From: an uncultured Mycoplasma sp.
GTDB taxonomy: Bacteria; Bacillota_I; Bacilli_A; Mycoplasmatales; Metamycoplasmataceae
DNA length: 47,343 nt
Direction: 5' to 3'
Assembly (NCBI GenBank): GCA_947039955.1
Contig: CAMRAC010000004.1
Location: 1 to 47,343 of the forward strand
In this document: positions 16,170 through 21,487 of the stretch, piece after piece
Position numbering within the stretch: position 1 is the first letter of the stretch
Layout of the letters: each line of letters begins with the position of its first letter
The notes under the pieces: model-generated
What the model saw: the letters and a program-made list of their open reading frames with translations, nothing else
Told to the model about the DNA's origin: nothing
Database searches by the model: none
Translations under genes and position numbers: made by a program

Positions 16170-16682
16170 ATGGAAGATAAAGCAAAAGAAGAATTAGAAG
16201 TTAACAAAGAAGTTAAAAAACAAGAAAAAGAATTAGAAGTTAAAAAACCTGAAAAAGAATTAGAAGTTAAAAAACCTGAAAAAGAATTAGAAGTTAAAAA
16301 ACCTGAAAAAGAATTAGAAGTTAAAAAACAAGAAAAAGAATTAGAAGTTAAAAAAGAAGTAAAAACTGAAGAAAAAAATTTAGATAATACAAATCTTATA
16401 TCACCTAAAAAACAATACAAAAGATTGGGATCAGAAAATAAAAAGATCGCAAAGTTATTAAAGAAAATATTAAAACACATCAAGTATTTAGATAAAGAAA
16501 TTGTTTATTTCAAGAAGTTTGAGAAAAAGAATCCAAATTTAGGTGAAACACTAGATTTGCTTATGACCAATTTTACAGATACTCTTGTAAATTTAAAAAA
16601 TGAACGTGATTTGATGGAACAAAAACATTTAGATAACAAAATTTCAATAGATAAACTAAAAGACGAAGCTCAAAAACAATAA
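16170..16682 (+). CDS. Coiled-coil protein with tandem nine-residue repeats
   Basis: A 170-aa, highly charged, soluble protein with no membrane segment. Residues about 8-65 are a tandem nonapeptide repeat of the form E-L-E-V-K-K-P/Q-E-K. The rest (from SENKKIAKLLKK to the C-terminus) is a predicted long helix with spaced Leu/Ile. No known family is recognised; the layout suggests a structural or scaffolding coiled-coil protein. The start has only a weak Shine-Dalgarno sequence (GAAAGACGG). The stop abuts the convergent tyrS stop with no spacer. The repeat DNA is near-identical, so copy number may vary between strains. Confidence 0.8.
   Translation: MEDKAKEELEVNKEVKKQEKELEVKKPEKELEVKKPEKELEVKKPEKELEVKKQEKELEVKKEVKTEEKNLDNTNLISPKKQYKRLGSENKKIAKLLKKILKHIKYLDKEIVYFKKFEKKNPNLGETLDLLMTNFTDTLVNLKNERDLMEQKHLDNKISIDKLKDEAQKQ
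16191..16364 (+). repeat. 27-bp tandem repeats inside the coiled-coil gene
   Basis: Five copies start at 16230, 16257, 16284, 16311 and 16338 at an exact 27-base period. A longer 39-base variant starts at 16191. The three middle units are identical and carry CCT (Pro); the fourth has CAA (Gln). The unit length is a multiple of three, so gain or loss keeps the frame. Confidence 0.95.
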
Positions 16683-18623: not shown

Positions 18624-19298
18624 ATGTTGGAAAATAAATTTCAAAAAATAAAAGTATCTAATAGCTATGCTATTGGAGGCATGATAGGTGCTGGAAAATC
18701 CACACTAACAAGAGCTTTGGCTGAAGAAATTAATGCGGATGTGGTTTTTGAACTAAATGAAAATGATAAATTACAGAATTTACTACTTGAAAAGCTATAT
18801 GAAGGAGATAAAACATCTGCAATCGCCTTCCAAGTCTACTTCTTTTGCTCAAGATTTGATAATTACAGAAATGGAATTACAAATAACAACTTAACTGTTT
18901 TTGACAGAACAATTTTTGAAGATAGGTTATTTGCTCACCAAAATATGACATCAGATCCTATTTTATTTGGTTTTTATGACAATATGTGACATGAGAAAGT
19001 AAAAGAGTTGATTTATTCTGTAGGAGTGCCTAAACTTTACATCATTTTGGATTTAAAATGAGAAGAATTTAAAGATAGAATTTTCAGAAGAGGAAGAAAA
19101 TCAGAAGTTGATAATTTTTCTAAAAATGAAGTTTACTTCAAAGCTATTCACCATATCTACTTAAATTATCTTGAAGATGTTTGTAAAGTTTATGGGATTA
19201 ATTATATTGTTATTGATGCATCTCAAACAACAGAACAACAAATCCACATCATTAAAAAGAAAATTAAGAAAGATGGACTGGAAGAAACAATTAAATAA
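18624..19298 (+). CDS. Deoxynucleoside kinase
   Basis: Salvage enzyme phosphorylating deoxynucleosides (deoxyadenosine/deoxyguanosine/deoxycytidine type) with ATP. The 224-aa protein has a P-loop GGMIGAGKSTL at residues 18-28, the DRT (DRS-type) catalytic motif in VFDRTIFEDRLFA, and an Arg-rich LID (RIFRRGRKSEVDNF). These define the dNK family common in mycoplasmas, which cannot make nucleotides de novo. Base specificity cannot be assigned. The stop overlaps the start of the next gene (TAATG), so the two are translationally coupled. Confidence 0.93.
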
Positions 19299-20098
19299 TG
19301 ATTGAAGTATTAAAAAACAAAGTTGGTACATACAAATTTAAAGGTGCTCAAAATGAATCTAAAGGAACAATTGTTTTTATTCATGGATTTGCCACTAATA
19401 GTGATTATCATGATGAAATGGCGGAAAGATTCGATAGATATGACTATTATGCTTTTGAACTTCCTGGTCACGGTTATACAAAGTTTGAAAAAAATTCAAA
19501 AATTGATTTAGTCGTTTTTACAGATTATTGTATTGCCATGATTGAAGAATTAGAACTAAAAAATATAATTTTACTAGGTCACTCAATGGGTGGTAGTATC
19601 GCTATGAGAGTAACGAATATTATTAAAGAAAAAATTCAAAAATTAATTTTAGTAACTCCAATGAATTCTTCAATTACTCCTTATTCATTAAAAATGTTCT
19701 TTATGTTTACTCCTAAAAGTTTTAATAAAACTTTAGCTTTGAATAATGTTCTATATAAAGATTTAACTAAAACTATTAATTTAAATATTGAACATTACAT
19801 AAACAAAGAGCATGAATATCAAGTCTCACATATTGATTTTTTTAGAAAATTGAAATGAAAAATTTACAGTATTAAAAATATGAAAAATTGTTTAAAAGCC
19901 GAAAAAACTCTATCAACTCCAACACTATTAATAGTAGGAGAATTTGATAGAACTATTAATTACAAATCTGCAATTAGAGCTATTAAGAAATCTAACAAAC
20001 CTTATATCCAAGTATCAATATTCAGAAACTCTTCTCACCTTCCATTTAAAGAAGAAGAAGATAAATACTATAAAGAAGTTGTTGACTATATAGAATAA
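19298..20098 (+). CDS. Alpha/beta-hydrolase (esterase/lysophospholipase-like)
   Basis: A 266-aa serine hydrolase, reading through one TGA. The oxyanion-hole region is FIHGFATNSD, the nucleophile elbow is GHSMGG, the acid is in GEFDRTI and the histidine in NSSHLPF, all in the standard order. Similar mycoplasma proteins are annotated as lipases, esterases or proline iminopeptidases; the substrate is unknown. There is no signal peptide, so it is probably cytoplasmic. The ATG overlaps the kinase stop by one base. A terminator follows three bases after the stop. Confidence 0.9.
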
Positions 20099-20100
20099 TT

Positions 20101-20130
20101 ACAAAAAGGCTTCGTCAGTGCCTTTTTGTC
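20101..20130. terminator. Bidirectional terminator
   Basis: A perfect 10-bp stem (ACAAAAAGGC with its complement) and a 9-base loop, with T-runs on either strand. It separates the hydrolase gene from the convergent double-glycine peptide gene. Confidence 0.9.
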
Positions 20131-20156: not shown

Positions 20157-20402
20157 TTAATTTATAAAGTGTATTTTTGATATTGAATCAGATTTGTCTT
20201 GGTGTGTTTCTCATTTAGTAACTGTTCCGTCTTTGCCCTTAACTTCTCCTTTGTCACTAAACAATAATTTAAATGATGAAACTAAAGAAGTCACTGCCGG
20301 AATAATTATTGGTAAAAGAGATCCGAGAATTGCTATAGCACTTCCTCCATAGATTTGTGATGATTGATTATCTGTCATTTTTGTAAATCCTTTTGTGGTC
20401 AT
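20157..20402 (-). CDS. Double-glycine-leader peptide, bacteriocin/pheromone-like
   Basis: An 81-aa protein; one TGA must be read as Trp to reach the stop at 20157. The first 20 residues look like a class II bacteriocin or ComC-type leader: a hydrophobic residue, then FTKMTDNQSSQIYGG, matching the F-x-x-hydrophobic-(T/S)-x-x-x-L-x-x-I-x-GG pattern with Gly19-Gly20 as cleavage site. The predicted mature peptide (61 aa) has a hydrophobic helix (IAILGSLLPIIIPAVTSLV) and a polar, charged tail. An AAAGGAGGT Shine-Dalgarno sequence four bases before ATG 20402 decides the start; a TTG at 20417 lies upstream of that site. No C39-peptidase exporter or immunity gene is in this window. A membrane peptide of another kind with a chance GG is the main alternative. 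Confidence 0.7.
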
Positions 20403-20405
20403 ATT

Positions 20406-20442
20406 ACCTCCTTTCAAACTTATATTCCTAAAAGGTGGAGGT
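20406..20442 (-). promoter_or_regulatory. Possible Shine-Dalgarno-sequestering hairpin
   Basis: ACCTCC in the 5' leader (20442-20437) is complementary to GGAGGT of the Shine-Dalgarno sequence (20411-20406), with a 25-base loop. CCTTT next to it could alternatively pair with AAAGG. Pairing would hide the ribosome-binding site of the double-glycine peptide. Confidence 0.4.
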
Positions 20443-20560: not shown

Positions 20561-21487
20561 ATGTATTTTATTTATGGTGAAGAATTATTTTTAATTGATA
20601 AACAAATTAAAAAAATAATAAAACAAAACGCTGATGCAAAATCAATTTTTTTTGATGCTAATTCTACTATATATGAAGCTATAAATGAAATCAATACATT
20701 CTCAATCTTTGATCATAAAAAAATCCTTATCTTTAAAGATTTTTACTTATTAACTAAGTCTAATGCCGCTCATGATAACGAAATTATTAACTCTATTAAA
20801 AACATGAATGAAAACATTATCTTGATCTTCACTTATTCAGATGCAAAACCAAAAGCACAAACACCTTTGTTTAAATATTTACTAAAAGAAATGCAAGCAA
20901 TTGAAGTTAAGAAATATACACAAATGCAATTGGCAACCATTATTAGAGAAATTGTTATTTCTAAAAGTGGATCAATTTCAAACATTAATTCAATTCTTCT
21001 TTCAACTAAATTACCTAATGATTTAAACCTAATCATTAGAGAAATTGACAAGCTGCTAATGGAAGACAAAGAAATAACAAAAGAAATGATATATGACTCT
21101 GTTTCAAAATATAACTCTAATAATATCTTTGAATTTATTAATTCATTTCAAGAGGGTGATGTTTCAGGTCTTTTCAGAAGTTATAAAGAAAGAGTGGATA
21201 ATGGTGAATCTATCATCAACCTAATGTCACAACTTTCTAATAGTCTAATACTTTGTAGCACAATACATTCTTATAAAGCTTCAAGAATGAGAATTGAAGA
21301 AATTGCAGAGGAAATGAAGATTCATATCTTTAGAATTAAAAAAGCCAATACATTATTGAAAACATTAACCTTCAAAAGAGTTGAAATATTAATTGAAATG
21401 TTGTCAGAATTAGATACAAAAATTAAAAGTGGAGAAATCAATGAAGTCATTGGTTTTGAAAAACTTCTTTTGGAAATAGTGCGTTAA
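20561..21487 (+). CDS. holA: DNA polymerase III delta subunit
   Basis: Clamp-loader subunit that opens the beta clamp. The 308-aa protein begins MYFIYGEELFLIDKQIKKI, the typical HolA start. It has ATPase-like fold segments (ILIFKDFYLL; NENIILIFTYSDAKPK), a helical lid (LIIREIDKLLM) and the C-terminal collar helices (FEFINSFQEGD; GFEKLLLEIV). No P-loop is present, as expected for delta. It lies divergently from the small peptide gene and has its own TATAAT at 20548. The GH13-like gene starts 17 bases after its stop with its own promoter. Confidence 0.92.
   Translation: MYFIYGEELFLIDKQIKKIIKQNADAKSIFFDANSTIYEAINEINTFSIFDHKKILIFKDFYLLTKSNAAHDNEIINSIKNMNENIILIFTYSDAKPKAQTPLFKYLLKEMQAIEVKKYTQMQLATIIREIVISKSGSISNINSILLSTKLPNDLNLIIREIDKLLMEDKEITKEMIYDSVSKYNSNNIFEFINSFQEGDVSGLFRSYKERVDNGESIINLMSQLSNSLILCSTIHSYKASRMRIEEIAEEMKIHIFRIKKANTLLKTLTFKRVEILIEMLSELDTKIKSGEINEVIGFEKLLLEIVR

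Follow-up and report, generated by a model that had tools for sequence, protein, structure and literature searches.

The locus analysed here raises the question of what a small peptide with a double-glycine leader does in a mycoplasma. Its gene is located in a stretch of 47,343 nucleotides of an uncultured Mycoplasma sp., which as a whole is called the window in the following. Comparison of genomes across the order suggests that the encoded peptide belongs to a family which is likely the dedicated cargo of the C39 exporter widespread among mycoplasmas. We observed a double-glycine leader, a transporter with an intact active site, a single gene copy per genome, conserved synteny, co-occurrence of peptide and transporter and co-variation between the cleavage site and the peptidase.

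The precursor of 81 residues is encoded on the reverse strand at 20157..20402, with the ATG at 20402 and the stop codon, included in these coordinates, at 20157-20159, a reading frame supported by orthologues and by dN/dS. It consists of a 20-residue leader, MTTKGFTKMTDNQSSQIYGG (20343..20402, reverse strand), directly followed by the predicted mature peptide of 61 residues, SAIAILGSLLPIIIPAVTSLVSSFKLLFSDKGEVKGKDGTVTKWETHQDKSDSISKIHFIN (20160..20342, reverse strand). Aligned with its relatives, the leader shows Met at position -12, Ile at -4 and Gly-Gly at -2/-1; it ends in IYGG, and its length lies within the range of about 15-25 residues of leaders processed by C39 peptidases, which terminate in GG, GA or GS. 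The mature part comprises a hydrophobic helix, a beta-hairpin, a polar linker and an aromatic C-terminus, the best-conserved segment being SDKGEVKGKDGTVTKWE (residues 49-65; 20208..20258, reverse strand), in which S49, G52, K55, K57, K63 and W64 are invariant or nearly so. A single in-frame TGA (20211-20213) encodes the conserved Trp64, so that translation of the gene requires the mycoplasma code (table 4). The strong Shine-Dalgarno sequence AAAGGAGGT, read from the sequence at 20406..20414 (reverse strand), is present as well. The sequence-only reading had described a double-glycine-leader peptide with a perfect Shine-Dalgarno sequence and had seen no exporter or immunity gene nearby, both of which we confirm: neither an exporter nor an immunity gene is present among its neighbours in the window, and no two-component sensor gene was recognised among the ORFs between 15 and 26 kb, all of these ORFs being read by eye.

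The flanking ORFs, labelled by eye from their translations, are an alpha/beta hydrolase-like gene at 19298-20098 and a holA-like gene at 20561-21487, both on the forward strand. The hydrolase-like gene and the peptide gene converge, and in the gap between them a hairpin, CAAAAAGGC...GCCTTTTTG, can be read directly at 20102..20129, which is possibly a bidirectional terminator; a simple scan for terminators did not report it. Elsewhere in the window, at 16170-16682, an ORF of 170 residues contains a tandemly repeated unit resembling EKELEVKKP. For the peptide gene, dN/dS amounts to about 0.24 relative to the two nearest of the species compared and to 0.08 when two sisters are set against each other, showing that it encodes a selected protein. 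Searches of Pfam and NCBIfam with the window protein, bacteriocin models included, gave no match, neither did phage records, and the fold search with the peptide revealed nothing significant; a sequence search of the PDB returned a single weak match, FliL (E = 0.008). AlphaFold2 predicted a helix spanning residues 11-48 followed by strands at 51-55 and 61-65, with a mean pLDDT of only 69.7 and a pTM of 0.31 for the precursor.

Export by a C39 transporter presupposes that the genome encodes one, and the sequence-only reading had named a genome devoid of it as one outcome refuting its proposal. The window's genome (738,935 bases in 8 contigs) encodes one Peptidase_C39 domain (PF03412; E = 9.2e-25), which forms the N-terminus of a 676-residue ABC transporter located on another contig (L002, 7473-9503, reverse strand) and has the catalytic residues Q, C, H and D all intact. 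The same four residues are preserved in nearly every genome examined, and C39 is present in 282/320 genomes of the order. A small ORF with one transmembrane segment overlaps the 3' end of the transporter gene, an arrangement shared by M. genitalium, by genomes of the Spiroplasma type and by others, albeit not by all. A C39 gene placed beside the peptide gene in some genome was considered and rejected, as none was found in the loci examined around the peptide. A few kb from the transporter, on the opposite strand, three similar repeat proteins of 600-780 residues are encoded in tandem (L002, 11636-17971).

A search with the window protein retrieved relatives in 21 of 58 genomes, orthologues from sister species sharing 54-66% identity. 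The profile built from these relatives detected the gene in 130/135 genomes of the window's family with one good copy each; second matches occurred in two genomes of the family only and were weak. A wider profile extends to the rest of the order, complemented by the dedicated profiles A3 for the Spiroplasma/Mesoplasma-type family (f6) and A4 for the family including M. genitalium (f3). The gene is present, for instance, in Mycoplasmopsis iners and lipofaciens and in Metamycoplasma orale, spumans, hyosynoviae and auris. Members of the family share the leader and a single long hydrophobic helix; the motif S..GE(I/V)K.K......KW(D) is also common to them, as are a polar linker, which varies, and an aromatic C-terminus. 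In f6 the motif takes forms such as GSYKTK...TWDN. The tail differs in f3, so that membership of f3 rests on the leader, the helix and the partner transporter, not on the hairpin. Some Mycoplasmoidaceae-type genomes carry two different GG-leader-like peptides in tandem (L285, L286, L287, L290), resembling two-peptide systems.

In 32 loci fetched from the families f1, f6 and f10, rplU-rpmA (L21-L27) is close to the peptide gene, which in 31 of these lies on the same strand as and upstream of rplU-rpmA, mostly within 300 bases. This synteny across the order points to one ancestral, vertically inherited and old core gene; in the window's genus the peptide gene has moved away from rplU-rpmA. As a calibration, the same profile was run on 395 genomes sampled from the class, and 39 genomes not belonging to the order showed weak matches. 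These are driven by the leader, and weak hits were therefore not counted as homologues on their own, i.e. when neither synteny nor motif accompanied them. Some belong to GG-leader-like peptides that end in LPGGFxFxW and are encoded by other Bacilli with small genomes; short GG- or PG-leader peptides with this or a similar end (L427-L430, L432 and L433) are possibly a distant branch of the window-peptide family.

Presence of the peptide follows presence of C39. Among the f6 genomes with C39, 49 encode the peptide and one does not, and among those without C39 two encode it and eight do not (Fisher p = 1.5e-7, uncorrected for ancestry). In genus g38, all seven genomes with C39 have the peptide, compared to one with and six without it where C39 is missing, and in family f11, in which 10/10 genomes are without C39, the peptide was undetected in all ten. 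The two f6 genomes that encode the peptide but no whole C39 are G177 and G168. Genome G177, which has no C39, encodes a leader ending in SGVK, GG being replaced by GV, whereas its close relative G180, which kept C39, reads SGGK; the peptides of these Spiroplasma-type genomes (L220 and L431 in G177, L209 in G180) are otherwise nearly identical. Individual genomes deviate. The leader is intact in G168, in which C39 is split into two ORFs. G117 keeps the conserved peptide, yet the catalytic Cys of its C39 is replaced by Phe (DFS; L338), the transporter ORF being otherwise open in this draft genome, in which a sequencing error is possible. G173, which we take to be Mesoplasma florum and which is the one f6 genome with C39 but without a detected peptide, showed none in the syntenic neighbourhood, and was counted as negative given only a weak profile match elsewhere.

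The cleavage site co-varies with the peptidase. The sequence-only reading had held that homologues in which the GG motif is not conserved would speak against it, and this holds in part: Gly -2 is replaced mainly in one large subclade of genus g3, whose leaders terminate in PG, VG, AG, PS or similar pairs. In the same subclade the surroundings of the C39 active site differ as well, reading mostly DCS instead of DCG and HM, HL or HI instead of HY or HF. Across 67 genomes, with leader classes assigned by eye, the residue following the catalytic His is aromatic in 35/35 genomes with Gly -2 and M, L or I in 26/32 of those with another residue at -2, the usual aromatic neighbour being retained in six genomes with Ala -2. 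As nearly all non-Gly leaders and altered C39 domains belong to one subclade, we regard the co-variation as supporting, not decisive. Shared ancestry inflates both the co-occurrence and the co-variation signals.

These data make it likely that the cell's single C39-peptidase ABC transporter exports the precursor and cuts it after Gly-Gly. On the cell surface or beyond it, this would free a peptide of about 61 residues that carries a conserved beta-hairpin and a helix inserting into the membrane. The mature peptide may then act as a population signal rather than as a toxin, a step with less support than export and cleavage. The minimal cell JCVI-syn3A keeps the C39 exporter (gene 0401), for which no double-glycine peptide was identified in its metabolic model; the C39 protein was tentatively assigned to lipoyl-peptide uptake instead, and an earlier screen cited there had also found none in mycoplasmas (PMC6609329). 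Compared to this proposal, the family of the window peptide is the better candidate for a C39 substrate. A single-copy family tracking the exporter would supply the missing cargo in most of the species examined, and the question has become testable.

A first alternative refines the cargo explanation rather than excluding it. It takes the exported peptide as a pheromone-like signal turning on recombination and DNA exchange, in analogy to ComC in streptococcal competence, with the Mycoplasmoides member being RrlA and feeding forward on sigma-20. In M. genitalium, a GG-leader peptide is encoded between a 148-residue ORF following the hmw2 region and mraZ; it matches the NCBIfam model NF045747 'MPN313' with 138.9 bits (cut-off 100) and, from gene order, is MG220. 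That this genome is M. genitalium is backed by the MPN313 match as well as by a published genome in which MG_390 lies near 493 kb (PMC5745988). A review identifies RrlA as mg220 and reports that activation of sigma-20, a feed-forward loop, requires both rrlA and rrlB (PMC9262362), the inducing signals of sigma-20 having been called unknown (PMC7549776). The MPN313 model yields weak matches in 4/39 members of the window family (best E 8.7e-4); outside of leader and helix, however, its mature part is unlike the window family, and the case for homology between the window peptide and RrlA, as drawn from these sequences, is weak. We considered whether MG428 (sigma-20) accompanies the peptide everywhere and found this unsupported: strong, convincing homologues are confined to Mycoplasmoides, genus g6 shows weak full-length hits, several other hits are short proteins, and the window's genome yielded none. 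RrlB was rejected as a second GG peptide, being MPN534, which is listed among the Lon substrates; a second GG peptide was looked for in M. genitalium and none was found.

Further points weigh against a pheromone. No sensor kinase gene was recognised adjoining the peptide gene, a mature peptide of 61 residues is long and hydrophobic for this purpose, and RrlA has been described as an accessory of the sigma factor that spans the membrane, so that it could exert its action from within the cell. As no sigma-20 was found in the window's genome, we treat the pheromone as a tentative idea, on the unlikely side, a signalling role of the window peptide as such being possible. We are more doubtful about its most far-reaching form, a conserved C39-dependent peptide signalling of mycoplasmas in which exported RrlA/MPN313 would trigger sigma-20-driven recombination and antigenic variation, the window gene would be its counterpart, and the system would have been overlooked because the peptide gene is far from the exporter. 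If the link to RrlA were true, it would offer a chemical candidate for what sets off antigenic variation by recombination.

A class II bacteriocin or competition toxin, as the sequence-only reading had envisaged besides a signalling peptide, is improbable. As a rule, bacteriocins vary between strains and sit in clusters with immunity genes. The double-glycine leader and the hydrophobic mature part would fit a bacteriocin, as would the tandem two-peptide loci of some Mycoplasmoidaceae-type genomes and automatic matches of bacteriocin models in some relatives, those from f6 reaching the curated leader models TIGR01847 (17.0 bits, cut-off 15.7) and TIGR03949 (21.5 bits, at the cut-off), matches that also speak for the cargo explanation. 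Against the bacteriocin stand a single copy in almost every species, kept synteny, vertical inheritance and purifying selection, together with the missing immunity gene nearby and a window protein that matches no bacteriocin model.

Similarly improbable is a small membrane protein which is not exported by C39 and in which GG is coincidental or a feature of the helix: the predicted helix running unbroken across GG, the lack of linkage between peptide gene and transporter and the change of GG to PG, VG or PS in one subclade would agree with it, but C39 co-occurrence, decay of GG upon loss of C39, co-variation with the surroundings of the C39 active site and the matches of relatives to curated bacteriocin-leader models argue against it, and PG leaders are also known in GG-type peptides of other Bacilli.

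As a summary, we favour the window peptide as cargo of the C39 exporter, and comparison with known systems places it as follows. Compared to pheromones of the ComC/BlpC type, the window gene has no adjacent two-component sensor that could be recognised, and its mature part is 61 residues long instead of short. Class II bacteriocins are accessory and strain-variable, whereas the window family is core in distribution (130/135), with the export genes not in the same operon. The lactobin A/cerein 7B class IIb (TIGR03949) shares the leader and the Gly-rich hydrophobic start with f6 relatives, one of which scores exactly at the cut-off; the window protein differs in having no match to this model, no partner peptide or immunity gene, and in its occurrence in nearly every genome. 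MPN313 (NF045747)/RrlA (MG220) resembles the window peptide by its GG leader, hydrophobic segment and polar tail and by an MG390-type C39 in the genome, but lacks the GEIK...KW hairpin motif and has its own locus beside mraZ; the window protein does not match NF045747 at E <= 5, nor does it reach the curated cut-off of 100 bits. The peptides L427-L430 and L433 of other Bacilli share the leader, a single helix and a short hairpin-like Trp end aligning with GEVK..DG...KW, and differ by a length of about 60 residues with neither C-terminal linker nor aromatic end, their homology being only putative. With the C39 substrates of the LcnC, ComA or SunT type, the window family has in common a short GG leader carrying hydrophobic positions, a C39 transporter encoded in the genome whose catalytic residues are intact, and a small coupled accessory gene with one transmembrane segment. 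It differs from these by being a single core gene in each genome that lacks linkage to the exporter gene, by having no recognised immunity or receptor gene beside it, by a long mature part of helix plus hairpin and by a PG/VG/AG cleavage motif in one clade. The window peptide represents a core form of double-glycine peptide and probably the missing C39 cargo of mycoplasmas.
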